The translations under genes and the position numbers were made by a program. Below are positions 1,726 to 18,788 of a stretch of DNA of 21,701 bases, piece after piece. The notes under the pieces were generated by a model. The model was given only the letters and a program-made list of their open reading frames with translations, did no database searches and had not been told where the DNA came from. Within the stretch, counting starts at the first letter, position 1, and every line of letters begins with the position of its first letter. This DNA is from a virus, in IMG/VR virus record IMGVR_UViG_3300047478_000036, positions 1 to 21,701 of that record. One strand, 5' to 3'.

Positions 1726-4700
1726 TTACATGTAATCGTCAAATAAACCGAACAATCTACCTCTTTTAGCTTTTGTTGCTTCTAAAGCTGCTTTCTCTTG
1801 TAAATTCTCAGCTCTAGTTTCTGCACGAGCCCTTCTTTCTTTTTCTACATCTACAGGATCTCTTAAATTAGCATTTGGTTTACCATAAATTGGGAACCCA
1901 GCAGAAGAATAAAGAATCCGTTTTGTCGCTTCACCTTCTGGAGCTTGTAAAGCAGAGCCTACAGAGAAAGGTAATCCTAGTTTAGCAACAGCTACAGCTT
2001 TATCTAGATAATTTCCATTTCTTTTATCCATTATCTCCATACCTGCTTTAGGAACAAAACCTAATTTACCTTGAAGTGTTGAACCAAAGTCCATCATCCA
2101 GTGTACAGACTCCATAGAGTGTTTAGCTAACTGTTGAGTTGTACCATCTTCATGTAGAATACGAGTTGGATCCTCATTCTCCCATATGTATTGACCTGCA
2201 GTATACATATTGATACCATTAAGAAGAGTTAGATACAAGAGACCTGTATTTATTACATATCTACGAGCTAAATCACCCTTATTCATAGGCTTCATTATAC
2301 CCTTAACACCACCCTTAATATCCCAAGCTTTAGGATTAAGCATCTCTTTAGGTAAACCACTAGTAAATGCTCTTAAAGTAGATGTAGTCCAATCAGGGGC
2401 AAACAATGCAATCTGTGCCCAAGCTCTATTCTCTATTCCAGAAGCTTTAATAGCTTGATTTCTAAGGAATCTATTCTCAATAGAGTTTGCTGCTTGTAAC
2501 CATTGCAAACCACCCATAGTATCATTTACAGATGTAGCAATTTCTTTAGCTACAGCATCTCTAGCTACATTCCACTCAGGATTAACTGTATTATCAGGAA
2601 GATACTTCTCTACCTTAAGGTTGCGTTCAGCATTAGATAGAAGGTGATTAAAGAGTAAGAGTTTACCACCAGTATGCATGTAATCCCAAGTAAATGTATT
2701 CATTTTCTCAAGAATATACTTATCTAAAGGATGTGTTATTCTTTGAAGTAACTTGCCTTCTTTGTTGCCTAGAATCTTAGAGTCAGCCCAAGCAGATATA
2801 TCAGCAATTACAGAACGATTAATATCCTCAGTACCTAGTTTAACACCAGACTTCATGGCATAGTTAACTTCAGGATCCATGTCTGCTTTCTTAAACTCAG
2901 CTACAGCTTTACGGATACCACTACCTGCAGTAATTATTTCTTTAAAAGCCAACTTAGGTGAAGCACCTGCTACAGCCCAAGCTAAAGATGGAGCATGGAA
3001 CAAAGACCCAGCAACGTTAAGAGCTTTTGTAAGCATAGCAGTCTCAAGCATAGCACTCTTAACAGTACCTATGTCTGATCTTTGGAACATATGGTCTAGT
3101 ACAGGAGCTATACTTGGATGTACAAACTGACCTTCTATTTGTTTATTTCCAGGACCATTGTAAGTTACATACTTATTCTGAAAAGCAATAGCAGGATCAG
3201 AAGTAACCAAAGGATTACCCTTAAAGTCTTTAGTAGCCTTAAGTTGATCTACAATACCTTTCTGAGCAATAGAAGTAGTGATAGCCTTGTGATAAGCCTC
3301 AAATACTAAAGCTGCATCTGTATGAACGTAAAGGTTAGCACCAATGGAGTTCAAACGATCTTGTAAATCTCTAGCTGTCTTATAGATACGAGTATTAGAA
3401 GAGTCTGTTTTAAAGATCTCAGGCTTCTCTTTGTATAGGTTCTCTATAATCTTAGCTGTAGCTTCTTTAGGTAGATTACTTTTAGATGAGTCAATCAAGT
3501 GAGTAAAGTAGTTGTACACTAGACCTTGAGTAACACCTGCATCACGAGCAGCAACACCATCTTTAAATAGGAGTTCACGTAGTTTATTAGCAGGTTCTAT
3601 TAAATGTTCTTGAGATCCAGACTTAAGTTTCTCAAGGTAATACTCTTGGTTCTTAATAGTCTTAAAGATAGGATTACTTGAGTCACCTTTAACAGTCTCA
3701 GACATAATCTTCTTAGCAGTAAGAGACTTCTCTAGATTAGTGATTCTTTTTAATCTTTCTGCATCTGTAAGAAGTTTAGTGTAAGGTCCAGGTTCATCTA
3801 TAGATCTAAAGATATCCTTTAAAGACTCTTCTTTGTTACCTGTAATAACACGAACAGCATCTGATATCTTTTTGGCTTTGAGAGCCTCGACATCAATCAT
3901 GTTCTGAGCTTCACTTACTTTATTAGCAACATCTCTAGGTAAATCTTCAGCCATAACCTCAGCTTCAGCTGCAGTCTTAAACTCTTCTTTAGGTTTAACC
4001 TCTACTCTAGAAGGTCTAACAGCCTCTCCTACTGCTTTAGCTAGACCAGCAAATGCACCAAACTGAGCAGCAGTATTAGTAGCAGCTTGTGTATCAAATT
4101 GAGAACGCTCACCTCTAGCCATCTCAGCAGATTGAGCAGCAAGTTCAGCACCGCCACCAATAGCAGCAGCTCTAGCAGCTTTAGTAGAAACAGCAGCAGC
4201 TTTTCCTGCAATAGGAGCTACCTTAGCAGCAGCAGTTATATACTTAGAACTAAGAGCAGCTAACTTAGCAGGAGTAGCCTCCCAAAGTCCAGGAATCAAC
4301 ATCCAAGGGTCTACTATAATACCTGTGTATAGATCTTGAACCACACCCATAGGATGCTCTTTAGCTGCAGTAACTAATGCACCAAAGGATTCAGATACAG
4401 AAGGAGTGTTAGCATCAGGTAGGATTTCTTTACCTTTACCAGTTAAGATACGACCAGCAAACCCAGCTTTAAAGTCTTCCTTAGAAGGAATAAATTGAAA
4501 TGGTTTATCAGTAGAACCTACTTTAGGTATCTCAGCTGAAGTATCAGTAACTGGAGCAGTACTCCAATCTACTACTCTATTAGCAATAGGAGCAGTATTC
4601 CAGTCAATACTAGAAGCAGTTTTAGGAGGAGCACCCATAGCTGAGTAGTCCTCACCTCTTTCTGTAACACTAGATACTTCAGTATTTTGTTTAAACTCAG

Positions 4701-4773
4701 GTACAGCAAAGTCTTCCTCAGTCAAAGGATTACTAGAAGCAATTGGTGCGGTACTCCAATCTACTGTTGCCAT
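1726..4773 (-). CDS. Large putative internal virion (DNA ejection) protein
   Basis: This 1015-residue protein is the last gene of the virion block, the place T7-like phages use for the gp16-type core protein that is ejected into the host with the DNA. The N-terminus holds three copies of an eight-residue motif, (V/I)DW(S/N)TAP(I/V), at residues 4-11, 56-63 and 68-75, in an otherwise disordered acidic stretch. An Ala-rich segment follows at roughly 160-255. The central part (about 285-540) is charged and helical. The last 400 residues include several hydrophobic helices, for example LYLTLLNGINMYTAGQYIW, compatible with membrane insertion. I see no lysozyme or transglycosylase motif at the N-terminus, unlike T7 gp16. 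The ATG at 4773 follows the previous stop by one base. The function rests on position, size and composition, not on a recognised domain. Confidence 0.7.
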   Translation of the reverse strand: MATVDWSTAPIASSNPLTEEDFAVPEFKQNTEVSSVTERGEDYSAMGAPPKTASSIDWNTAPIANRVVDWSTAPVTDTSAEIPKVGSTDKPFQFIPSKEDFKAGFAGRILTGKGKEILPDANTPSVSESFGALVTAAKEHPMGVVQDLYTGIIVDPWMLIPGLWEATPAKLAALSSKYITAAAKVAPIAGKAAAVSTKAARAAAIGGGAELAAQSAEMARGERSQFDTQAATNTAAQFGAFAGLAKAVGEAVRPSRVEVKPKEEFKTAAEAEVMAEDLPRDVANKVSEAQNMIDVEALKAKKISDAVRVITGNKEESLKDIFRSIDEPGPYTKLLTDAERLKRITNLEKSLTAKKIMSETVKGDSSNPIFKTIKNQEYYLEKLKSGSQEHLIEPANKLRELLFKDGVAARDAGVTQGLVYNYFTHLIDSSKSNLPKEATAKIIENLYKEKPEIFKTDSSNTRIYKTARDLQDRLNSIGANLYVHTDAALVFEAYHKAITTSIAQKGIVDQLKATKDFKGNPLVTSDPAIAFQNKYVTYNGPGNKQIEGQFVHPSIAPVLDHMFQRSDIGTVKSAMLETAMLTKALNVAGSLFHAPSLAWAVAGASPKLAFKEIITAGSGIRKAVAEFKKADMDPEVNYAMKSGVKLGTEDINRSVIADISAWADSKILGNKEGKLLQRITHPLDKYILEKMNTFTWDYMHTGGKLLLFNHLLSNAERNLKVEKYLPDNTVNPEWNVARDAVAKEIATSVNDTMGGLQWLQAANSIENRFLRNQAIKASGIENRAWAQIALFAPDWTTSTLRAFTSGLPKEMLNPKAWDIKGGVKGIMKPMNKGDLARRYVINTGLLYLTLLNGINMYTAGQYIWENEDPTRILHEDGTTQQLAKHSMESVHWMMDFGSTLQGKLGFVPKAGMEIMDKRNGNYLDKAVAVAKLGLPFSVGSALQAPEGEATKRILYSSAGFPIYGKPNANLRDPVDVEKERRARAETRAENLQEKAALEATKAKRGRLFGLFDDYM

Positions 4774-4774
4774 A

Positions 4775-6031
4775 TTATTTTACAATCCCGTTAGATCTTG
4801 CCCATTCAGTAAGTGCTTTCTGTTTTGCAGGATTACCTTTAAGAGCAGCAAACTCTTTTGTATACCTATCATAGTTAGATAGAGTACCTTGAGGTTGAGG
4901 AGTAGCTCCTGGAGTAGGACTATATGCCTGAGCATTAGTAGAAATAACATCATTAAACTGTTGTCTAAAGGAAGAGTTTTGTGACTCAATCTCAGACTTA
5001 GTAGCCATGATTGTTTTTTTCTTAGCTTCAAGAATATTTATATTTGCTTGAACTGTCTCTTTATCTTCACCCGCAAAGTTAATCTTAGTTCTAAAGTTAT
5101 CTAAAGATCTATCAATCTGTTCTATATCATCACTTAATTGTTTAACCTGATCATCACCAGCTTTAACACGAGCCTCAATATCTTTACGAGCAGCTACAGA
5201 TTTACGGAATGCTAAGTTTGAATACTTAAATCCAAGTTCTTTATCTAATTTAGCCATATTTGCTTTAGCTCTAATACCAGCTCCCTCTACTACAGCAGCT
5301 GCTTTAATTATAGCATTATCTTTAGAAGCTTCTATTGTCTTAAGTTGACGTTGTTCCATAGAAGTAGTAGCAGCAGTCTCAGCACCATTAATATCATTAT
5401 TTAACTGCGCTTCCCAGGCAGTCTCAGGTAAAGCACGAAGTTTATCTGCCTCTTCCTTACCCATAGCTTGTTCATACTTAGCCACATAGTTATCCCAGAA
5501 CTGTTTCTTAAGTTCAGGTCTATCTTTAGATACTGTTTTAAATGCTTCTAAAGTACCATTAGCTTGTGAACCTATGTATTTAGCAGCTTGTATATTCTGA
5601 GTTAGAGTATCTAATCTACCTTTATTATTCTTAGTAATAATATCTTGAGCTACAGCTTGAGCTTTCATTCTGTAGTTAATTGCTTCTTTTGTATGACCTC
5701 TTGCAGCTAGTTCGTCAGCTACCTTATTTAAAGCAGCTGCAGGATCTTTAATATCTTCTTCTGAAAGAGATTTAAATATAGAATCTAAGTCATTAGCTTT
5801 ACGTAACTCTGGATCAGCAGCTTGTCCACCAAATAAAGTAGTAAGACCATTAGTAATAGAACGATCTAACTTACCTTTATAGTAACCTTCAGCTGCTCTA
5901 GGATCCATGTTACCCATAGCAATAGCTTCTTTAAGATAAATGTTTTCTTTATCTTGTTTGTACTGACTAGCATAAGTACCTAGATCTTGTATTTCCCACT
6001 CACCAGGCATTAATTGATTTGCTTGTGCCAT
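4775..6031 (-). CDS. Putative internal virion protein, coiled-coil rich
   Basis: A 418-residue protein in the gp15 position of a T7-like order, between the S74-containing protein and the large ejection protein. It is almost entirely charged and helical, without a signal peptide or membrane segment. Ala- and Lys-rich helices fill residues about 100-290, a strong coiled-coil-like stretch (DIEQIDRSLDNFRTKIN and neighbours) covers about 290-355, and a Pro/Gln-rich linker (SPTPGATPQPQG) precedes a short C-terminal helix. The ATG at 6031 has GGAG nine bases upstream; this overlaps the end of the preceding gene. No enzyme motif is seen. The role in the core or ejection complex is inferred from location and composition; a tail-associated structural protein is the alternative. 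Confidence 0.65.
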   Translation of the reverse strand: MAQANQLMPGEWEIQDLGTYASQYKQDKENIYLKEAIAMGNMDPRAAEGYYKGKLDRSITNGLTTLFGGQAADPELRKANDLDSIFKSLSEEDIKDPAAALNKVADELAARGHTKEAINYRMKAQAVAQDIITKNNKGRLDTLTQNIQAAKYIGSQANGTLEAFKTVSKDRPELKKQFWDNYVAKYEQAMGKEEADKLRALPETAWEAQLNNDINGAETAATTSMEQRQLKTIEASKDNAIIKAAAVVEGAGIRAKANMAKLDKELGFKYSNLAFRKSVAARKDIEARVKAGDDQVKQLSDDIEQIDRSLDNFRTKINFAGEDKETVQANINILEAKKKTIMATKSEIESQNSSFRQQFNDVISTNAQAYSPTPGATPQPQGTLSNYDRYTKEFAALKGNPAKQKALTEWARSNGIVK

Positions 6032-6035
6032 GTAT

Positions 6036-7214
6036 TTAAACTCCTAGTAAAGCATAATTAACTGCTTTATACCCATTAATCAATCTAACAGCTTCAGGCA
6101 TTACTTTCTCTACCTCATCAGCCATTACACCAGTACCTTTTTCATTCCAAACATAATCCCAAGAGTATTTATTTAAACCATTTTTATACTTACCTATTAG
6201 TTTAATATTCTTTTTGAGTCGTTTATCTGAGTACATCCAATCAGCTTTACCACCTGCATACTCATTACCTGATCCAGTACCACCAACAGATCCACCAAAC
6301 AAACCACCCCAATCCATGTTACTTGCACTATTAATCAAATCACCCCATTGGTTAGCCTTAGCATTAGATTTATAAAGGGCATTTAAGTAATTAGTTTGAT
6401 TAATACCAGCATTGATCTGACCTGCATTTTGATTAGCAGTAGTAGATAGATTACCAAAGTTCATACCAGCAGTCATAGTATTGGCACCTAAAGTCTCAAT
6501 ATTGCTTCCATAACCAAACAGAGTATTAGCTGTTTCATAAGGTTGCGTAGCATATGATTGACCTAGACCATATAAAGCACCTGCTTGAGTAAGAGTATCT
6601 GCTTGGATAGAACGAGCTCTATCTTCTGCTCCTACAGCTAAAGCTGCATTCTGTTGTTCACGAGCCATTGCTAGTGCATATTGTTGAGGGTTAACATAAC
6701 CACCACCCATACCAACACCTTGACCCAAGGTCCCACCACTAAACTGAAGATCATTTAAACGACTAGATTCTTGAGCACGACCTGGTTCTAATAGATTTAT
6801 TTGACTACTTAAGTAGTCTTGAGTCATAGCACCAATGTCCATATTGGTAGCTTGATCAAACAATCCCTTACCATAATCTGATACTTGTGCAGCATAAGCT
6901 AACTGATCAGCAGAGGGCATAGCACCTGTAGCACCTGCATAAAACTTATCTCTGAATGCTTTCATTTCAGGAGTTAGTTCATATGTAGCAGTCTTATTAG
7001 TCTCATCTATAGTAGATGTACCATAACCTGATTTTATACTATAAGGAGTAAACCCAGGAACATTGGGAGATTGACCACTACCTCCACCTCCGCCTCCACC
7101 ACTAAGAAGACCTTGAGCACCTCCTGCAACTGCACCCCAAGGATTACCACCAGAGGTAACAAAACCTTTAACAGCTCCTTTAAGACCCTTACCTATTTTT
7201 TTAAGTAATCCCAT
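6036..7214 (-). CDS. Virion protein with C-terminal peptidase S74 intramolecular chaperone domain
   Basis: A 392-residue protein in the T7 gp14 position. It begins with a cationic amphipathic helix (MGLLKKIGKGLKGAVKGF) and a glycine run (about 39-48). Residues 50-320 are rich in Gln, Asn, Ala and Gly. The last 64 residues are a clear S74 chaperone domain: SDKRLKKNI at 329-337, GVMADEVEKVMPEAV in the middle and VNYALL near the end. In this family the Ser of SD and the Lys five residues later (Ser329, Lys334) form the self-cleavage dyad, and the domain is released after helping a trimer fold. S74 domains are best known on tail spikes and fibres, so this could be a spike-like protein. Position and the amphipathic start suggest a small core or membrane-active virion protein. 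The ATG follows AAGG by about ten bases. Confidence 0.75.
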   Translation of the reverse strand: MGLLKKIGKGLKGAVKGFVTSGGNPWGAVAGGAQGLLSGGGGGGGSGQSPNVPGFTPYSIKSGYGTSTIDETNKTATYELTPEMKAFRDKFYAGATGAMPSADQLAYAAQVSDYGKGLFDQATNMDIGAMTQDYLSSQINLLEPGRAQESSRLNDLQFSGGTLGQGVGMGGGYVNPQQYALAMAREQQNAALAVGAEDRARSIQADTLTQAGALYGLGQSYATQPYETANTLFGYGSNIETLGANTMTAGMNFGNLSTTANQNAGQINAGINQTNYLNALYKSNAKANQWGDLINSASNMDWGGLFGGSVGGTGSGNEYAGGKADWMYSDKRLKKNIKLIGKYKNGLNKYSWDYVWNEKGTGVMADEVEKVMPEAVRLINGYKAVNYALLGV

Positions 7215-7234: not shown

Positions 7235-7900
7235 TTAAGCAGTACGTTGCCACATATAAACTACAACATATGGTTGTAAGTTAGCATTAGTACCACTTAC
7301 ACCATCAGTACTATTAGCTACTGTAATTCCTGTTGTTTTTGATCCTGTATTTACAGTTGAATTAGGAGTTGGTTGTCCTTGAGCACTTAAATTATTTGCA
7401 GGTTGTAATCCACTAGCCCATAAAGGTACAGTATGAACGTGTCCTGGGTCTGTTACTGTTGCAGTATGCGTATGACTTACTACAACTGCATCAGCACTAC
7501 CACCAGTAGCGCCAGCACTAAATGATCCTCCATTACCAATTAGAACACGACCAGCTCCAAAAGCTACCCAGGTACCTATACCAAAGAGTGTTGCAGGATT
7601 AGTAGAAATAGTTGATGTATAAATTGAACCTACTGGATAGATAAGTAATAAAGCTGCTGATATAGCTGTAGTAATAAAAGCAGTTGTAGCTATTTGAGTA
7701 GTATTATTTCCAGCACTAGCAGTTGGAGCAATAGGAGTCCCAGTAAATGTAGGTGAAGTAGTATCTGCTTTACTTGCTACAGCAGTTGCAATAGCATTAA
7801 ACTCATCATCTATTTCACTACCCTTAATAATCTTTGCAGGATTACCTGTAAGCAAGGCATCCTTTGTATAGAAGTTTGTTGCTTTCACATAGTTTGCCAT
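7235..7900 (-). CDS. Short tail fibre/collar-domain protein
   Basis: This 221-residue protein is probably a trimeric receptor-contacting tail appendage. The N-terminal part (MANYVKATNFYTKD..., about 1-45) resembles virion attachment segments. The middle has the common fibre repeat TTSPTFTGTPIAPTA and TTAFITTA. Then comes the collar-type block: YPVGSIY at 88-94, GTWVAFGAGRVLIG at about 109-122, two His-x-His pairs (143/145 and 154/156) of the kind that bind metal ions along the trimer axis in T4 gp12-like fibres, and the terminal LQPYVVVYMWQR (208-219). It lies between the gp12-like tube protein and the S74 protein. Its ATG overlaps the upstream TAA by one base (TAATG), so it is translationally coupled. 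The exact role in adsorption is inferred. Confidence 0.82.
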   Translation of the reverse strand: MANYVKATNFYTKDALLTGNPAKIIKGSEIDDEFNAIATAVASKADTTSPTFTGTPIAPTASAGNNTTQIATTAFITTAISAALLLIYPVGSIYTSTISTNPATLFGIGTWVAFGAGRVLIGNGGSFSAGATGGSADAVVVSHTHTATVTDPGHVHTVPLWASGLQPANNLSAQGQPTPNSTVNTGSKTTGITVANSTDGVSGTNANLQPYVVVYMWQRTA

Positions 7901-9489
7901 TATACCATCTTCCCTGTTTTCAAATAGATTGTTAGTTGTTGTAAGCTAACTGGAGCACCTTCAATAGGAACCTCCACACCAAATTGTAATACTTTCCCTG
8001 ATCCACCTAGGTGCATTGTAATATCTTGAATTGCACTACCAGCCGTAAACTCACCTATATTATATTCAGAGATATTATACTCAGCTGTACCTCCTACGAA
8101 GTCTTTTGTATATGTTCTACTTGAGTATGCATTTTGATAATCAAAACTATACTTAAAAATAACATCTTGAGTTCCAGAAGCAATTACAACCATACTAGCT
8201 TTCTTTAAAAACTTAAGACTAAAAGGCTCACCAGCATCTATATTAGAAGTATAGTATTCTAACCGATAAGTAGCAGTATTGTCTAAGTATCCAAAGTATC
8301 TACCTATACCTCCAGCCATACCAAGATATAAGTTTCTATCTCTAGTCTTGCAAAGAGCCTTAGGTATAAACCCTTCCCATGTTGTTACACGAGCTGCTCC
8401 ATTATCTAGTGCTTGTCTTAAATCAAAATAAAAAGATTTTTTTAAATTAGGAAATACTAATAGATAAAAAGCATCTCTTTCAAAATAAACACTTCTAATA
8501 TTATTAAGAACTTCACCTGATATATACGTAACTAAATCATCTCTTATATTAGCCGATAAATCACGCAGCGGCATACTTTTTTCTTGAACAACACGATTAA
8601 AACTTCGTACCCCACTATTACTTAGGAATATTAAATCTGTACCTGTTTGTTGTATGGTGTCGCGAGCAATACATCCAACACCTGTTACTACATCAGCAAG
8701 AGTAAGATTAGTAGGATCATTTGGTGATTGATAGATTACAATATTATTACGGCAGAATATAATAAGATAATTATTATGTGAGGATATACCTACAATCTCA
8801 TCACTACTACCAACAACAGATTCAATATCAATTAAACCTGAACCTGTACCTGTAAATAAAGCACCATCTAATAATTGACTATAATAAACTGTTGTTTTAG
8901 CACCCGTCACACCTGCTACCCAATGACGACCAAAGGCTGTATGTGAACAGTCAGGATCAAAAGTAGTTACACCTGTAGGTTTAGTACCATAGTCACCAAC
9001 ACGTTGCCAAATAAAAGCACCTGTATGATTTGTTTTACGATAAACAAGAAGTGGATTACCTGTCTGTGCAGCAAACCCATACATACTATTACCATAACCA
9101 GCACCTTCTGCTAGTTGAGAGAATTGCCACCTATTACCAGTAAAAGTAATTGTAAGGTTAGTTGTTTGATCTGCTTGTTTAACTGGAGATTCTGTAAGAG
9201 TAGTAGAACCAGTATACATCTTACCACCACCACAAGATAAGATAGTAGGTGTTAAATCTGTACCAATAAATTCAAATAAACTCTCAAGATAATCTGTATC
9301 ACTTAATGAACCATTATTTGTTGTAACAGGTGTCCAACCTCTACGGCTGCCTAAACGACCAAACTTATCTATAATACAGTTAGTAGCTTTTGTAGCATAA
9401 CCACTCTCTAACGTAACACCACTCTCTTGAGTATTTAACCCAAGAAAGCCAAGTGCAGCATTACTAAGTGCTTTTAATTGACCAGCCAT
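7900..9489 (-). CDS. Tail tubular protein B (T7 gp12-like nozzle)
   Basis: A 529-residue protein that would form the distal tail tube or nozzle of a short-tailed phage. The start MAGQLKALSNAALGFLGLNT, then GYATKATNCIIDKFGRLGSRRGW (about 30-53), is the usual opening of this family, in which a conserved Gly-x-x-x-Arg-x-Gly-W motif precedes beta-propeller-like repeats. The rest is beta-strand rich, with many Tyr, Thr and Asn. I chose the ATG at 9489, whose A is the last base of the upstream TAA (TAATG). A TTG at 9504 would add five residues inside the previous gene and looks less likely. The gp11-like gene lies immediately upstream, as in T7, which supports the call. Confidence 0.83.
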   Translation of the reverse strand: MAGQLKALSNAALGFLGLNTQESGVTLESGYATKATNCIIDKFGRLGSRRGWTPVTTNNGSLSDTDYLESLFEFIGTDLTPTILSCGGGKMYTGSTTLTESPVKQADQTTNLTITFTGNRWQFSQLAEGAGYGNSMYGFAAQTGNPLLVYRKTNHTGAFIWQRVGDYGTKPTGVTTFDPDCSHTAFGRHWVAGVTGAKTTVYYSQLLDGALFTGTGSGLIDIESVVGSSDEIVGISSHNNYLIIFCRNNIVIYQSPNDPTNLTLADVVTGVGCIARDTIQQTGTDLIFLSNSGVRSFNRVVQEKSMPLRDLSANIRDDLVTYISGEVLNNIRSVYFERDAFYLLVFPNLKKSFYFDLRQALDNGAARVTTWEGFIPKALCKTRDRNLYLGMAGGIGRYFGYLDNTATYRLEYYTSNIDAGEPFSLKFLKKASMVVIASGTQDVIFKYSFDYQNAYSSRTYTKDFVGGTAEYNISEYNIGEFTAGSAIQDITMHLGGSGKVLQFGVEVPIEGAPVSLQQLTIYLKTGKMV

Positions 9490-10130
9490 TATTGTGCTGT
9501 CCAAATCATTTCATCAAGACGTTGACTAGACTCTACTGCAATAAGATCTGCAGCCATAGAGCGATAGCGTTGCTCTTGTTCCGCATATCCACCATCATCA
9601 CCACGCTCACTAATCGCACGGGCTAAAGCACCCTCTACTAAAAGATTACCTGGAATTAGTATTTGTGTAGAATCAGTAGTTAATTCATCTTGAGGAACAA
9701 CACAGTTAATACGAATATTATATACACCATCAGGAATAGGAAAGAAATCTACTTGAGAATCACCATTAGAGTCTACACCATTGAAGTTGTAGTACATAGG
9801 AGAACCTTTAGGTGAGTCATAAGTTAAGTAAACCTTATCAAACCACTTAGTACCCTTCTGCTCTATAATATAGTTATCTGTATCATTGAAGACATCAAGA
9901 ACACGAATACGTGTACCTGATCCTACTAGTACATAGTTAAATAAAGAATCAGTTGTATTAGCCGTAAGAGTAGTACGAAGAGCTGACCAATTCCAACTAT
10001 CTTCTACTTCTACTTTCACAACATTAACTAAATCTCCTATTAGTTTGGAGTATGGAGTTTCATTGACAGTAGTAACTTCGTTTTCACGAAGTCGTCTTAA
10101 AACTCTATTTACACATTCTAAGTATGTCAA
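9489..10130 (-). CDS. Tail tubular protein A (T7 gp11-like adaptor)
   Basis: A 213-residue protein of the gp11 adaptor family that joins the portal to the tail nozzle. The N-terminal helix (LECVNRVLRRLRENEVTTVNE) and the following VKVEVEDSWNWSALRTTLTAN are typical. A conserved beta part with PKGSPMYYNF and FFPIPDGVYNIRINCVVPQ sits in the middle (about 110-150), and the C-terminal helical part carries LVEGALARAISERGDDGG. The start is TTG at 10130 with AAGGGA seven bases upstream; no in-frame ATG exists near the beginning, and the start fits the length of relatives (about 200). A near-perfect promoter (10156-10184) lies just upstream, so this gene heads a transcript for the tail and ejection genes. 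It overlaps the gp12-like gene by one base. Confidence 0.85.
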   Translation of the reverse strand: MTYLECVNRVLRRLRENEVTTVNETPYSKLIGDLVNVVKVEVEDSWNWSALRTTLTANTTDSLFNYVLVGSGTRIRVLDVFNDTDNYIIEQKGTKWFDKVYLTYDSPKGSPMYYNFNGVDSNGDSQVDFFPIPDGVYNIRINCVVPQDELTTDSTQILIPGNLLVEGALARAISERGDDGGYAEQEQRYRSMAADLIAVESSQRLDEMIWTAQ

Positions 10131-10467: not shown

Positions 10468-10842
10468 TTATTTCCTTAAAGTTAGATACATTCTTTCACC
10501 AATAACAAAGCTCATACAAGCTCCACTTAGGTCAAGCATAATAAGAGTAATAGGTTCAGGAACAGTAGAAGTAAATACAGCACCTACTGTTGCTAACCAT
10601 ATAATGATAATTGCGATATACCTAAAGCTAGACCTTAAATTATTCACCCAAAGAGAAGGTTCACCTGCTGGTTTATCTATCTCTGCTAGTGCTTGTAAAC
10701 GAGCTGTCTCTGCTTGCATAAGTTGTATGCGTTCAGCTACATTGACAGGATTACCACCTGCCCCTTTAGTGAACTTAGCAAAGATACCACGGACACCATC
10801 TGTTAGTGCTGGAAGAAGTGCTGGAAATAAAACTGACCACAT
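10468..10842 (-). CDS. Holin-like membrane protein
   Basis: A 124-residue protein in the lysis cluster, directly after the endolysin gene and overlapping it by one base (TAATG). A hydrophobic N-terminus (about 2-14) is followed by an amphipathic charged helix (34-58), the segment PSLWVNNLRSSFRY (62-75), and two strong hydrophobic helices at about 75-92 and 97-114, ending in a short basic tail. The layout resembles the three-TM holin family found in gene transfer agents and phages, where a Trp/Arg segment precedes the first long helix. Its likely role is to permeabilise the inner membrane so that the peptidase reaches the wall. Sequence similarity to that family is my impression, not a search result. 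Another membrane protein with a holin-like layout lies at 11260-11469, so which one is the holin is open. Confidence 0.7.
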   Translation of the reverse strand: MWSVLFPALLPALTDGVRGIFAKFTKGAGGNPVNVAERIQLMQAETARLQALAEIDKPAGEPSLWVNNLRSSFRYIAIIIIWLATVGAVFTSTVPEPITLIMLDLSGACMSFVIGERMYLTLRK

Positions 10843-11258
10843 TATACAATCCCCTTTACGTATTTACCTTTACCCTTGAGTGTGAGAATATTCCCACGCA
10901 TACGAGGATCAAAGGATATATGAACCCAAGTCTTTTCATAAATCAATTGGTCAAACTTTAGATTACTCTTACTTAAGATATTAGATATAGTAAGTGGTGT
11001 GTGCCCATAGGCTGTAAAGTCTACAGCATAACCATGAGTGTGTGACGAGTTGCTAGTACCACCAACTGCACGGTTTACATCAGGGCTGCGGTAGCCACTA
11101 TTGATAGTGATAGCTACATTACCTAGTAACTCTCTTACCTTTTCCATATAGAAGGCAGTAGTACGTAACACTTCTATTACTTCTTTAGATGGAGTATTAT
11201 CTATCTTTTGATTAGTAACTGTAAGTTCAGCAAGAGAAAAGTGAGGTGTCAGTTGCAA
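10842..11258 (-). CDS. Endolysin, peptidase M15 (D-Ala-D-Ala carboxypeptidase-like)
   Basis: A 138-residue zinc peptidase expected to cut the peptide bridges of peptidoglycan at lysis. It has the M15 signature S-x-H-x-x-G-x-A-x-D at 71-80, giving zinc ligands His73 and Asp80, and the third ligand His113 in WVHIS. The SGYRS motif (54-58) with Arg57 is also characteristic. The protein is a bare catalytic domain without a wall-binding module or signal peptide, so a holin would be needed for export. The start is TTG at 11258 with AGGA eight bases upstream. The next in-frame ATG would remove the N-terminal third, including the conserved HFSLAELT, so TTG is preferred. The gene lies between two small membrane proteins. 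Confidence 0.92.
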   Translation of the reverse strand: MQLTPHFSLAELTVTNQKIDNTPSKEVIEVLRTTAFYMEKVRELLGNVAITINSGYRSPDVNRAVGGTSNSSHTHGYAVDFTAYGHTPLTISNILSKSNLKFDQLIYEKTWVHISFDPRMRGNILTLKGKGKYVKGIV

Positions 11259-11715: not shown

Positions 11716-14220
11716 TTATCTTAATTCAGACCATTGATTTAAAGCCATGCTTCCTGACGGGGTGAACAAATATGTTGCGCCAGCAGGGATAATATAAGTG
11801 CCACCAGCATATACTGTTAAACCCCAACTTCCTAAACGACCATAAACCGTTCCATTTATAGAAACTGTGCATGAAAAAATACCATTTGATGCCGTTCCGC
11901 GAATTGTTACAAAAAGCATTATTGAACGACCAGTTGAATTTGTATAGGTGGTTGATAATGCCCTACTAGCGGTAACATCTTGCCAAGTTTGCCCAACACC
12001 GATTGCGTTTGATGCTGTTGTTGCCGTTGCCGCGTTGCCTGAACAAGCAGATGATGTTCCTGAAGTTGTAGCGTAATTTACACTAAAGTTTGATGGGTTA
12101 TACACATACATATTTGAACCATCACTACCACCCCATAACCAAGGTGGCTGACCACTTTGCCCAGACCAGTTAAAGTTTAAATCTACACCACCAACACGAT
12201 AAGGATAAGCGCGACCTGCTGTTGTTGCGTAAGTAGCCGTTGCCGCATTGCCTGAACTTGTAATAAACCCAGCGCCATTGGTTAGTTGGTTTGTATTGGT
12301 TACATTGGTTGCGCCAGCCGCTATGCCATCAAGTTTGCTTGCATAAGTGCTAGTCATATACCCATTGACCGATGCAGTTGCAGCCGCCATGCTTATTGCA
12401 GGTGTTGCGCCACCACTTGAAACAACGGGTGCTGTACCTGTAACGGATGTTACTGTTCCTAAACCTTTGCTGTTAAATGTGTTCCAATCTGTGCTAGTTA
12501 AATACCCTGAAACACTTGTTGTTGCGGCTGGCATTGAAATAACTGGTGCTGTGCCACCACTTGATGCTACTGGACTAGTTGCTGTAACACCAGTAACTGT
12601 ACCTGTATTACTTGTATATCCATTTGGATTTGATGCTAGATAAAAAGCAGAAGCGTGATTACCATCTAGTAAATCTGCATTAAGATTAGTATTTAATGTT
12701 GTTGATGTTAGTGTAAATGGTGCTGTGCCAGATGCAAGTGTTGATGTAATAACACCTGATGCTGCCAATGTACCAATAGATATATTAGGAGTTCCAGTTA
12801 AACCACCAGCAGTACCACTAATATTGGTTTGATCACCTGTATTAGTCCCACTAGATGTCCCACTAAAAGTACCTGATTGAGTAGCAAGTGTACCAAGACC
12901 TAGATTAGTTCTAGCAAGAGTAGTACTTACTAAATCACTTAAGTTATTTGCAGCAAGTAATGCCCCTGTTACAGAAGCATAAGCAGATAACCAAGTTGTA
13001 CCATTATATACACTCATAGTATTAGTGGAAGTATCGAAATACAAAGCACCTGTTAATAAAGCATTACCATCATTATCTACAGTGGGTGCTGAACTTTTAG
13101 GACCTAAGTATCTATCATCAAATGCATCATAACTAGCTGCTGCATTAGAGGCTGATGTTGCTGCATTAGATTCACTTGAAGCTGCATTTGTAGCAGATGT
13201 AGATGCTATACCAGCTTGTGTAGTAGCTGTTGTAGCTGATGTTGCTGCATTTGTAGCACTTGTAGAAGCATTTGAAGCTTGTGTGGTAGCTGTAGTAGCT
13301 GAACCTGCTGCAGAAGTTGCACTAGAAGATGCATTTGTTGCTTGTGTAGAAGCAGTTGTTGCTGATGCTGCAGCATTAGTTGCACTAGTACTAGCCTCAC
13401 TTGCCTTTGTTGTAGCAGTAGATGCAGATGTAGAAGCACTTGATGCCGAACTAGTAGCATTAGTAGCTTGTGTAGAAGCAGTAGTTGCTGATGTAGCAGC
13501 TTCTCCAGCTTTTGTTGTTGCTATACCAGCTTGTGTAGTAGCTGTTGTAGCTGAACCACTTGCACTAGTAGCACTAGAACTAGCATTAGTGGCTTGAGTA
13601 GTAGCTGTTGTAGCAGAAGCAGCTGCATTAGTTGCAGAAGTAGAAGCACTAGAGGCTGAACTACTAGCTGCTGTTGCACTAGAACTAGCATTAGTAGCTG
13701 AAGTAGCAGCTTCACTTGCTTTTGTTGTTGCTATACCTGCTTGAGTAGTAGCAGTAGAGGCACTACCTGAGGCAGACGTAGCACTTGTAGAAGCATTAGA
13801 GGCTTGAGTTGTTGCTGTTGATGCACTACCTGAAGCTGAAGAGGCACTTGATGCTGCATTAGTTGCAGAAGTAGAAGCTCCACTAGCACTTGCTGCCGCA
13901 TTAGTAGCAGATGTAGATGCCTCAGAAGCTTTTGTTGTTGCAGTAGAAGCACTTGTAGAAGCAGAAGATGCAGATGAAGAGGCACTAGAAGCACTTGATG
14001 AAGCATTAGTTGCAGAAGTAGCTGCATTGGTAGCTGCAGTTGATGCCTCAGAAGCACTATCTCCTATTGTATCAGCAGCATTTACGGCAGTAGTAGCACT
14101 CGCAGCTGCAGCTAAGGCACTTGCTTCTGCAGCACTAGCAGCAGCAATTGCTGTTATAGAGTTATTTGAGGTATCTGCCGTAGCATCCCCACTACCTCCT
14201 GGTCCTCTATATATAGCCAT
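11716..14220 (-). CDS. Tail fibre protein with long Ala/Ser/Thr heptad shaft
   Basis: An 834-residue fibre expected to bind the host surface. The start [14 protein letters not shown] is the standard N-terminus of many podovirus fibres that anchors to the tail. Residues about 30-360 form a long run of seven-residue units of the form xAxxAxx (for example [21 protein letters not shown]), consistent with a thin trimeric alpha-helical shaft. A neck follows ([16 protein letters not shown] and [18 protein letters not shown]), then fibre repeats with [17 protein letters not shown]-type strands, and a C-terminal domain from about 690 that should contact the receptor. The C-terminal quarter (roughly 11716-12640) uses GCG, ACG and GGC codons that are rare in the rest, and looks acquired. 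No S74 domain is present. The ATG has AAGGA upstream, overlapping the end of the preceding gene. Confidence 0.88.
13130..14130 (-). repeat. 21-bp-period coding repeat in the tail fibre shaft
   Basis: About 45 consecutive units of seven codons encode xAxxAxx with x mostly Ser, Thr or Asn, and Lys, Gln or Glu at a few fixed places. Longer units recur, such as [11 protein letters not shown](S/G)EAAT twice. Ala codons are almost only GCA and GCT. The repetitiveness at DNA level makes this a likely place for length changes by slippage or recombination. Confidence 0.85.
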
Positions 14221-14482: not shown

Positions 14483-15394
14483 TTAGGCTGGAACAGCTAA
14501 TGCAAAGCAAGCGTTGTCACGTAGCTCTTTAACACCGTACAATGTATCAGCAGTGTATAGAGTACCTAAGTATTCTTGTTTGTATTGAGTTTGTGAACGA
14601 ACACCTTGTTGTTCAACCAACACGGCAGCATCTTTGTGACCTAGTAAAGCAATACGAGCACCTCCAGTAGCAGTATCACAGTTGCTTGATACAAATACAG
14701 GGATACCATACAAGTTACCGATTTCACCATTGCGGATTGTGTTGCCATTACCAACTTCACCAACGAAGGCTTGTTCAGTGTAGCGAGATAAACCCATCAA
14801 TGTGTTACGAGCTGAAGGAGGAATCAAGAAGAAACGACCATCCATAGGAACATCGTTGTCATCTAAACGTTGGATTGTACGACGGATAGCAGCATCAGTT
14901 AATGCAGAAGCATTGCTTGAACCTGATGTGTAAGCAGTAGTACCGTCACCACCGATGTAAGCACCACCGTAAGTTACGCCTGAACCACCGTTGAAAGTAC
15001 GACCCAATTGGATCAATGAGCTATCAACTTGTTTAGATAAAGCATAACCAGCATCTTCTGTGTAGAAGCGACGTAGAGAAGATAAAGCTTGTACTTCTGT
15101 AATATCTTCAATCAAACGTGAGTACTCGTAGTGTTTGTCTACTAGTACTTGTACTTCTGTTTCAGTAGCTGCTTGTAGTGTTACTTGTGTTTCTGTTGCT
15201 TTAAGAGATGCTACACCACGAGTAGGTGAAGGGATATGGATTGTATCACCTTTCTTACCAGTGAAAGACATTTTCTTAAATAGGTTAGCTGCTACAAGAG
15301 ATTTCTTATAAGCAGCAAGAATCTCATCACTCCAAATTTCTGGAATAAAGGATGCGCCTGTAGTATTTGTTACGTGATTTGAGCCTAAAGCCAT
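14483..15394 (-). CDS. Major capsid protein (HK97 fold)
   Basis: A 303-residue capsid subunit. The N-terminal MALGSNHVTNTTGASFIPEIWSDEIL, then GDTIHIPSPTRG (about 49-60) and a long spine helix region (YSRLIEDITEVQALSSLRRFYTEDAGYALSKQVD, around 90-123), are typical of phage capsids of this class. The A-domain region has VPMDGRFFLIPPSARNTLM (about 182-200) and GEIGNLYGIPVFVSSN (about 224-239), a recurrent capsid motif. It is preceded by the scaffold gene and followed by a terminator, and its ribosome binding site (AAAGGA, 8 bases) is strong. Codon use is more C-rich than in the neighbours, as expected for a highly expressed gene. There is no decoration or cleavage domain that I can see. Confidence 0.92.
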   Translation of the reverse strand: MALGSNHVTNTTGASFIPEIWSDEILAAYKKSLVAANLFKKMSFTGKKGDTIHIPSPTRGVASLKATETQVTLQAATETEVQVLVDKHYEYSRLIEDITEVQALSSLRRFYTEDAGYALSKQVDSSLIQLGRTFNGGSGVTYGGAYIGGDGTTAYTSGSSNASALTDAAIRRTIQRLDDNDVPMDGRFFLIPPSARNTLMGLSRYTEQAFVGEVGNGNTIRNGEIGNLYGIPVFVSSNCDTATGGARIALLGHKDAAVLVEQQGVRSQTQYKQEYLGTLYTADTLYGVKELRDNACFALAVPA

Positions 15395-16774: not shown

Positions 16775-16803
16775 ATTATACCATAAGATTATTTAAATGT
16801 CAA
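16775..16803 (-). promoter_or_regulatory. Sigma-70 promoter for the head genes after the portal
   Basis: On the minus strand: TTGACA (16803-16798), 17 bases, TATAAT (16780-16775), with TGG just before the -10 box. Both hexamers are perfect. The -35 box overlaps the TGA stop codon of the portal gene. Transcription would start near 16768 and serve the two small genes, scaffold and capsid, ending at the terminator at 14433-14466 or reading through it. Confidence 0.87.
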
Positions 16804-18788
16804 GCGTTATTTTTACTAGCCATCTGCATCTTGACAATCTCTCTGTTCTGTGCACTATCTACTGCTTTTAGATTAAGAGTTTTCTCTTTTAGTAGGAGAT
16901 CTGCAACCTTGACACGACGCTCAAACTCTTTGTCATCACCTTCACCTGCTTGTAGGTTAGTAGATAGAGCAGCAACTAGTTTAGCTTTCACTACTTCTGG
17001 TTCTAATTGAGTTTCAACTGCAATTTGTTGAGCTTCTGCTTGTTGTTTACCAGCCTTAGTATTAAGATCTGCAGTTTGTGCTGCTACTAAGCCCATTTGA
17101 AGCTGCATTTGCTGTTGTTGCATTTGTTGTGCTTGTGGATCAGGCTGTTGAGACTGTGCTAATTGCTGTAATAACTGCGTTTTATTAGCTAAATTAGAGG
17201 TCTCTAGCACACCTTGCATCAAGATTGGTAGTAAAGGACTATCTGGACCTAGAGTTTTCATTAGATTGATGAATTGTTGCTGTTCAACCTCACGAGCAAG
17301 CATACCTAATGTAGAACTAGGGATAAACTTCCAGTCTTGTGTCTTAAAGTGCTCAGGATCAAACTGCATGAACCTCCAAGCTGCCTTCTCTACGAATGGA
17401 ATGAGGAATTGGTCCTGGAAATTGACTAAAGTACGTTTGTTCTTCTTGATAATAGCAGAAAGAGCAAACGACATGTTAGCACCTTCAGGTTGAGACTGCA
17501 ATGCAGCAGTATCCATAGTACCTGTAGCCTGTAAAAGCATCTGTTCGAACTGTTGAGCAGTCTGAATGTTAGCACCATCTACTGAACCAAACTTAAATGG
17601 CATCAGAATTTCAGCTGGATTACCATTAGTAAGGATAGTTTTACCTGGTCTTACTTCAAACTTACTACCACGAGGTAGTCGAGTAGCATCCATAGCCATC
17701 ATAGGCACGGTTGCAAGGGCTAAACTATCTAAGTGGCTACGTAACTGTGCATCAATTGCTTTCTGCATGTTGTAGCCCTTCTCTGCAACTCCACGACCCC
17801 AGAATCTGTTAGGGATTGAGTCATCTTGATATGCAACTACAGGACGATCTTTCATCATGTAAGGAGATTTCTCTGCCTTAAGAAGAGAAGACTCATTAGC
17901 AATAACTACTACTGCTTCTACTAAGTCACCATACTCTTCCATTAAATCACTTAGATTCTCATCTTCGCTTTCTTCGTCTCCAAATAAACTTACGATCTCA
18001 CCATCTTCTTTGATAGCAGATTCTAATAAGCGTTTAGGAACTAGACCATAGTAACGAAGTACTCGGATCTTATCATCATCATACTCAGTATCTATAAAGC
18101 TTGCTTCTAGATCACTATCTGGAGTAGAGTCATCTCCTAGATCTTTTACATCACGATATATACCTTGAGAGATAGCTTGAGCTACTGAGTGAGCAGATAC
18201 AAACTCCTCAATCGCTACACCCATAGCATCTTCAATAGAAGTAGCATTAGGATCTATAAGGAAGTTCTGAGGACTGATTGGACGTAGAGCTACTCGTACC
18301 TTCTCTACTTCTTGTACACCAATAGCAGATACATCTAAACCTTCAATAGGTTGAGTACTTGGGAATAGTTCTTTAGTTTTCCTTACTGTAATCTCACCAA
18401 TACCAGTACCATAGATAGAAGCTAGAAGGATCACATCTCCTACTGCTTTACGAACCTTATTCTTCTTGAAGCACTCTTTCATATAGTTTTTCATGTATTC
18501 TACATCTGATGGATCATTGTCTTCCATGTCATCTTCGATGTCGAATAGATAATCACCTTGACCAAAGACTGCTTCTTCTATCTCTGCAGTGTGATTCTCA
18601 ATAGCCTGTTGTAGAGCAGGAGAAGTGATACGACTACGTTCTGAGTTACGAGTAGTGTCCTCTGCTGCCCAGATACCACGCCATAAGCGTTCGTATTCTT
18701 TCCAATCAGAGAGATAGTTATCATCACGATGATCTCGCCAATCAGTAACGCTATCATTAATCCAATCTACTAGTTTATTAGAACTCAT
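16800..18788 (-). CDS. Portal protein (head-to-tail connector)
   Basis: A 662-residue portal that forms the dodecameric ring through which DNA is packaged and ejected. It has the family layout: an N-terminal helix with LSDWKEYERLWRGIW, a conserved SRITSPALQQAIENHTAEIEEAVFG (about 52-76), an acidic domain around 80-100, the segment VALRPISPQNFLIDPNA (about 166-182), and the DRPVVAYQDDSIPNRFWGRGVAEKG segment near 317-341 that is typical of large podovirus portals. The last 120 residues are Gln-rich and helical (QQPDPQAQQMQQQQMQLQ), probably the barrel. Length agrees with relatives (500-750). The ATG at 18788 has GAGGA upstream and follows terL by 14 bases. Confidence 0.9.
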   Translation of the reverse strand: MSSNKLVDWINDSVTDWRDHRDDNYLSDWKEYERLWRGIWAAEDTTRNSERSRITSPALQQAIENHTAEIEEAVFGQGDYLFDIEDDMEDNDPSDVEYMKNYMKECFKKNKVRKAVGDVILLASIYGTGIGEITVRKTKELFPSTQPIEGLDVSAIGVQEVEKVRVALRPISPQNFLIDPNATSIEDAMGVAIEEFVSAHSVAQAISQGIYRDVKDLGDDSTPDSDLEASFIDTEYDDDKIRVLRYYGLVPKRLLESAIKEDGEIVSLFGDEESEDENLSDLMEEYGDLVEAVVVIANESSLLKAEKSPYMMKDRPVVAYQDDSIPNRFWGRGVAEKGYNMQKAIDAQLRSHLDSLALATVPMMAMDATRLPRGSKFEVRPGKTILTNGNPAEILMPFKFGSVDGANIQTAQQFEQMLLQATGTMDTAALQSQPEGANMSFALSAIIKKNKRTLVNFQDQFLIPFVEKAAWRFMQFDPEHFKTQDWKFIPSSTLGMLAREVEQQQFINLMKTLGPDSPLLPILMQGVLETSNLANKTQLLQQLAQSQQPDPQAQQMQQQQMQLQMGLVAAQTADLNTKAGKQQAEAQQIAVETQLEPEVVKAKLVAALSTNLQAGEGDDKEFERRVKVADLLLKEKTLNLKAVDSAQNREIVKMQMASKNNA

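Follow-up and report, generated by a model that had tools for sequence, protein, structure and literature searches.

The S74/ICA domains of known structure, from fibres and from MyRF (3GUD, the GA-1 neck appendage; 6F45; 7DC3), share a PF13884 core and a Ser–Lys dyad. According to the accessible text of the MyRF paper (PMC8326128), the domain works as a trimer in the solved families; trimerization of the MyRF ICA is driven mainly by the C-terminal helix, and only trimers undergo cleavage. The ejection proteins of podoviruses form a second point of comparison. In SU10, the accessible part of PMC9509320 assigns the nozzle to gp17, the needle to gp18, and the ejection proteins to gp20–24. The record of P22 gp7 states that its N-terminal 20 residues are removed by a host protease, a processing precedent for this slot, and a review, in its accessible portion, describes the partial structure published for ejected T7 gp14 as a hexameric helical channel that neither excludes nor shows threefold contacts.

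Annotation already places S74 domains on ejection proteins, as with pfam13884 on the ‘putative ejection protein’ gp17 of H6/1 and with phrog_4287. We found no discussion of them in the open-access full texts searched, and the term S74 has a count of zero in the accessible portion of the ejection-protein review. In the open-access literature searched, neither the short form of the domain considered below nor its polyprotein form is described.

Gene order and position of the S74 protein

The structural genes of the 21.7 kb viral window (the whole stretch of DNA analysed here) lie on the minus strand (Table 1) and run in the order terminase, SU10-type portal, capsid, 834-aa tail fibre, SU10-type adaptor, and 534-aa nozzle candidate, followed by a 221-aa Gp10_C protein, the 392-aa S74 protein, and proteins of 418 and 1015 aa. 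Judged by sequence, this gene order is of the SU10/phiEco32/P22 podovirus type; a T7-like order is ruled out, the portal and adaptor both being SU10-type. The 392-aa gene sits between the tail-hub region and two larger putative ejection genes, the same succession as that around P22 gp7 and T7 gp14. The preliminary description had assigned the protein to an internal-virion (gp14) position; the slot is retained, by synteny, as that of a first ejection protein, within an order that is SU10/P22-like rather than T7-like.

Table 1. Features of the 392-aa S74 protein and of the surrounding structural genes (positions in the window)
Feature	Position	Strand	Evidence
SU10-type portal protein	16800..18788	-	PF23899 5.2e-20; phrog_1216 1.2e-41
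Major capsid protein	14483..15394	-	phrog_267 4.5e-56
834-aa tail fibre, separate gene filling the fibre role	11716..14220	-	phrog_38058 1.1e-43
SU10-type adaptor	9489..10130	-	PF24175 1.2e-11
534-aa nozzle/tail-hub candidate	7900..9504	-	phrog_5107 8.3e-34 (label: amidase); phrog_578 head closure Hc3 3.9e-9
221-aa Gp10_C protein, collar/short fibre or needle candidate	7235..7900	-	PF21939 1.2e-21
392-aa CDS, first-ejection-protein slot, C-terminal short S74	6036..7214	-	ORF; Pfam S74; synteny; homologues
Host core, residues 1–306, common to S74-less homologues	6297..7214	-	Predicted mostly helical, low confidence
Gly-rich linker, residues 307–328	6231..6296	-	Translation; replaced in S74-less relatives
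Short S74 domain, residues 329–392, without C-terminal helix	6039..6230	-	PF13884 at 329–377
Ser329, expected catalytic serine, first residue of putative released tag	6228..6230	-	Invariant in 47/47 aligned segments
Lys334, expected catalytic lysine (Ser+5)	6213..6215	-	Invariant in 47/47 aligned segments
Recombination footprint around the S74 tail, high-identity tract common to L002	5754..6414	-	93–100% in 60-base steps
418-aa protein, next gene downstream; candidate for second ejection protein by slot	4775..6031	-	Synteny
1015-aa protein, candidate third ejection protein by slot	1726..4773	-	Synteny

Neither P22 gp7 nor T7 gp14 has an S74 motif, and hhalign comparison of these proteins with the window core returned probabilities of 0.6% and 0.2%, respectively, that is, no detectable homology. 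The ejection slot of the window protein therefore rests on synteny, and we regard the protein as occupying the gp7/gp14 slot without counting it as a gp7/gp14 homologue. Across the wider comparison with P22 gp7, T7 gp14, phiEco32 gp23/gp24, and the other S74 hosts, hhalign did not support homology of the core to any of them (best probability 5%, APDY group). Searches of Pfam and PHROGs with the 418-aa and 1015-aa proteins downstream gave no convincing or informative family match. Elsewhere in the window, a Peptidase M15 lysin candidate (10842–11258, minus strand; PF08291 3.3e-21) lies in the group of small genes that separates the tail fibre from the adaptor. The only large plus-strand ORF (3–1244), which is cut by the window end, has a weak match to a ribonucleotide reductase barrel (27.2 versus a Pfam cut-off of 23.9 bits) confined to residues 97–179.

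A short S74 domain lacking the C-terminal helix

In the 392-aa protein, PF13884 matches residues 329–377 over the whole 58-position model (E 7e-9; 36.3 bits, curated cut-off 22), and the GVMADEVEKVMPEAV block begins at residue 362. This match and a residue check bear out the earlier assignment of an S74 domain with a Ser329/Lys334 dyad and that block to the C-terminal 64 residues. Positions 6036–6230 span exactly Ser329 to the stop, because codon 329 lies at 6228–6230. Shuffling the protein 20000 times produced the motif SD.RLK once. Modelled alone, the S74 segment gave a confident prediction (mean pLDDT 91.9), residues 24–73 of which superpose on residues 606–676 of the MyRF ICA (7DC3) with an rmsd of 2.4 over 50 residues and 26% identity, at a Z score of only 3.1. 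Foldseek returned no match for this model at E <= 0.001, and GA-1 3GUD is absent among the VIA-align matches listed for it. In profile comparison, the window domain matches the N-terminal half of the fibre and MyRF domains. With GA-1 3GUD the match covers residues 1–70 of the 129-residue chain, which continues for 59 residues further, whereas the window domain stops where the C-terminal helix begins. Also unlike the fibre domains, it follows a Gly-rich linker instead of a fibre stalk, and its host is probably no fibre.

The remainder of the protein is less readily classified. Every PHROG match of the 392-aa protein extends into the S74 tail, and PDB sequence and profile searches with the core gave chance-level matches only. 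Structure prediction of residues 1–328, proposed as a check in the preliminary description, yielded a helical rather than beta-rich core, but with a mean pLDDT of only 50; Foldseek found nothing for it at E <= 0.001, returning generic long helices only.

A search with the window S74 domain identified 198 relatives, of which 80 were kept and 79, besides L018, were measured; a fibre control set was drawn with a 113-aa Vibrio phage fibre query (best 80 of 583 kept). The distance from the catalytic serine to the end is 63–76 residues in the short type (62 distinct) versus 86–118 in the fibre type (63 distinct), whose long tails are partly built in because the patterns of the 113-aa query include the helix and the best 80 of 583 were kept. 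These counts were limited to tails of 55–125 residues; with an upper limit of 170, the short type still had none above 76. Fibre-type tails end in a long helix-like segment. Independently of the fibre-query bias, the helix occurs in 0 of 79 short-query loci, and a C-terminal helix of the triple-coiled-coil type is absent from the window domain (64 residues from the serine inclusive) and from all 62 distinct relatives. Any trimerization must therefore come from the host protein; moreover, since MyRF cleavage needs trimers and the trimerizing helix is missing here, the short form might be inactive.

The short type nevertheless keeps the Ser–Lys dyad, which was found at all 79 loci, including 70 that carry only query patterns without it. 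Across the 47 aligned short-type segments, the Ser, Asp, and Lys do not vary, nor do two Tyr and two Gly residues. The 25 residues preceding the serine are richer in Gly/Ala in the short type than in the fibre type (medians 0.40 versus 0.24; Mann-Whitney p ~1e-13) and less charged. In the window itself, this stretch has a hydrophobicity of -0.30 and a charge of 0.12, versus short-type medians of 0.40 and 0.04.

Exchange of the S74 tail among core homologues

Homologues of the window core were collected in a first search (16 loci) and a profile search (94 loci, 80 kept). Among the 80 kept, 71 of the 72 3'-complete homologues lack S74, the sole carrier being L018, from the same contig as L002. 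The S74-less sisters reach 92.5% identity over residues 1–306 and end ~20 residues past the core. At the DNA level, collinearity extends to roughly codon 307–312 and resumes near the stop; in between, the window has ~255 bases and L004 ~62. Compared with L002, which carries S74, the tail is 99.2% identical (258 bases), the core 90.0%, and the downstream gene 80.7%; identity outside the high-identity tract (Table 1) is 80–97% upstream in the core and drops to 55–88% downstream. The core tree joins the window to L003 and the group around it, and L002 to L007 (support 0.978); L003 and L007 both lack S74. The tail identity, the ~650-base tract, and the core tree thus indicate that the S74 tail moves by recombination, and on these nucleotide and tree comparisons the tail of the window protein is a recent exchange.

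More broadly, the last 20–60 codons of the window-family protein are a site of exchange at which, apart from S74, several recurring and mutually unrelated tails occur: the 72 3'-complete homologues comprise four other recurring types (13, 12, 8, and 6 members), one S74, and 32 unclassified tails. Because S74-less relatives end at the same place with unrelated tails, processing and the tag appear dispensable for function. A self-cutting tag in this slot, with natural S74-plus and S74-minus sisters whose cores are more than 90% identical, makes directly testable how ejection proteins are kept soluble and harmless until packaging and what switches them. In PHROGs, 0 of 10 S74-less relatives have an ejection-protein label; tblastn with two distant core relatives against named phages and a core profile search of bacterial genomes each found nothing.

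Short S74 domains on ejection-slot proteins of other phages

Turning to other phages, tblastn with the window protein matched 51 named phage records. Among 17 named phage regions examined, S74 lies on the protein in the first ejection position in 13 (H6/1, PVA1, ct7L0027, AH02, 7-11, PAE2, RHph_I3_18, Mwe-JY13, DB2, 199E37-1, phiM5, RHph_Y1_10, and ppBeUSDA76-2), with the slot assigned from gene order in PAE2, Mwe-JY13, ppBeUSDA76-2, RHph_I3_18, and DB2; it lies on a fibre in three (phiKSUM, PG216, and PA5oct), and CRP-212 is ambiguous. Of the 13 proteins in the first ejection position, eight are themselves annotated as ejection, injection, or internal virion proteins or have a neighbour that is. 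Tails measure 62–85 residues in the 12 ejection-type proteins with a C-terminal S74 and 89–110 in the three fibres. The gene for a named DNA injection protein in Vibrio phage PVA1 comes immediately after a 273-aa ORF that has a short S74 but no annotation (L172:5398-6219).

With S74 removed, the 65 distinct short-type host cores match phrog_6121 (virion structural) in 39 cases and the DNA-ejection families phrog_4287 and phrog_598 in five and four, respectively, and none of the 65 matched a tail-fibre family in the PHROG scan; the same kind of scan gave many fibre-family matches for the 63 fibre-type cores. Of 58 next-gene proteins, 17 belong to phrog_2534, labelled ‘released from the phage upon host infection’, one to phrog_917 with the same label, and one each to three tape-measure families. 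At least three groups can be told apart among the host cores (the window family, the APDY group, and the phrog_598 matches), with no homology detected between them. The statement in the preliminary description that S74 normally serves spikes and fibres is accordingly too narrow, as the domain recurs on ejection-slot proteins in all of these groups.

Individual phages resemble the window protein to differing extents. Salmonella phage 7-11, which is phiEco32-related, encodes a ‘DNA ejection protein’ (gp20, phrog_4287) with a C-terminal S74, whereas its core is unrelated to the window core by hhalign; phiEco32 gp24, to which 7-11 gp20 is annotated as similar, ends without S74. Sinorhizobium phage phiM5_27 has a short S74 (78 residues), with internal virion proteins in the next three positions, and its record states ‘detected in phage particle proteome’; unlike the window protein, it is 468 aa long and labelled tailspike/chaperone of endosialidase. 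In ct7L0027, the ‘internal virion protein D’ UOF80297 and its relatives share the slot and the short S74, which in this family is internal instead of C-terminal.

S74 domains within ejection polyproteins

UOF80297 (MW202675.1, L173:5179-8736) is 1185 aa long, with S74 at residues 277–327 and a transglycosylase SLT domain at 601–694. In 38 of 42 related loci, the protein continues for 146 residues or more beyond the serine, and 23 of the 38 are complete, with 884–1182 residues after it. The family (UOF80297 and loci L272–L309) comprises proteins of 1150–1480 aa with an internal short S74; in 20 that were scanned, S74 was found in all 20, SLT in seven, and Phage_lysozyme2 in two, with SDRRLK invariant and the dyad present in 20 of 20. 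In eight loci read, the preceding ORF encodes 161–169 aa, at the place where ct7L0027 has an annotated acetyltransferase gene. The most telling hint of retained cutting activity in the short type is this position of S74 amid a polyprotein; here, it would separate the two halves of a fused ejection protein.

Possibly, podovirus ejection proteins widely use the helix-less S74 as a self-clipping cassette that is gained, lost, and swapped and that in one family splits a polyprotein internally, a generalization we hold to be plausible but doubtful. By analogy with the ICA in MyRF, the polyprotein would be split into a first ejection protein and a cell-wall-cutting part. Confirmation of the polyprotein form would place S74 among the proteases that build the DNA-delivery channel; were the wider generalization true, S74 would be a general protease of the DNA-delivery machinery, beyond its role as a fibre chaperone.

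Proposed role of the S74 tag

For the window protein, we tentatively propose, with confidence a shade below even, a modular first ejection protein bearing a short S74 self-clipping tag, possibly gated by assembly. The short S74, a beta core with the Ser–Lys dyad and no trimerizing helix, carried at the C-terminus of the ejection protein, would ride along through synthesis and assembly and cover the Gly-rich C-terminal end. Upon crowding of several copies at the portal vertex, or under some other constraint on them, the dyad would cut just before Ser329, the 64-residue tag would drop off, and the processed ejection protein would stay in the virion. Autocleavage, its trigger, and the covering role of the tag are inferred; in favour of the proposal are the conservation of the dyad, the ejection slot, the host-core families, the phrog_2534 neighbours, the short form itself, the Gly/Ala-rich stretch before the serine, the particle-proteome record of phiM5_27, and the processing of P22 gp7. 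Weighing against it are the missing helix, the S74-less relatives, the lack of core homology to gp7/gp14, and the uninformative downstream genes. The window's own stretch before the serine, less hydrophobic and more charged than the group, likewise counts against a proposal already finely balanced.

Alternatively, although we consider it unlikely, the domain may be an uncut docking tail: a stable C-terminal S74 module that tethers the ejection protein to the portal, to the nozzle, or to the ejection protein after it and gives way to other tails when the partner changes, the dyad being a structural relic. Such a module would fit the C-terminal swap site of the window family (72 homologues, several tail types), the recombination tract centred on the tail, and the missing trimerizing helix. 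However, the invariance of Ser and Lys (47/47) and of the dyad (79/79) is more than a relic would need, and S74 also occurs within polyproteins, where a cutter makes sense.

The preliminary description had offered as one possibility an ejection protein that trimerizes with an S74 helper. S74 is indeed borne by an ejection-slot protein, but the trimerizing helix is missing. In a modified form, the ejection protein would be a trimer (or a multiple of three) whose folding S74 assists before cutting itself off, the host and not an S74 helix supplying the trimer contact. The core and dyad are the same as in fibre S74 domains, and the solved families act as trimers, as far as the accessible text of PMC8326128 describes; yet the stretch upstream is Gly/Ala-rich, in contrast to the stalk-like sequence before fibre S74, and homologues fold without S74, leaving this a distinctly improbable explanation. 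The other possibility raised in the preliminary description, that the genes are rearranged and the protein is a tail spike, or else a fibre, recalls the tailspike or tail fibre labels on some short-S74 proteins (e.g., phiM5_27 and DB2 gp18), apparently given because of S74 itself, and is highly improbable given a fibre-family match in 0 of 65 host cores without S74, the predicted helical rather than beta-rich core (mean pLDDT only 50), the presence of an 834-aa tail fibre and a 221-aa Gp10_C protein encoded by genes of their own, and the homologues without S74, so that the host protein is probably not a spike. The same labels carry a warning for annotation: a call of ‘tail fibre’ or ‘tailspike’ is often made from S74 by itself, and ejection proteins are mislabelled as a result.

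Other features of S74-encoding loci

A common acylated Met-Gly start was considered for these proteins and is unsupported: the choice of start had favoured Met-Gly in the window family and the polyproteins, and once it no longer did so, Met-Gly was found in 15 of 74. An acyl/acetyltransferase gene lies just before or near the S74 ejection protein at L092:4726-5160, L173:4685-5179, L177:4836-5240, and L179:4343-4699. Finally, in two loci (L130:1549-6240 and L140:1552-6240) a short S74 follows a hydrophobic Trp/Phe/Gly segment on a protein of 1563 or 1564 aa, which we presume may be a baseplate protein; some short-S74 hosts may thus not be ejection proteins.
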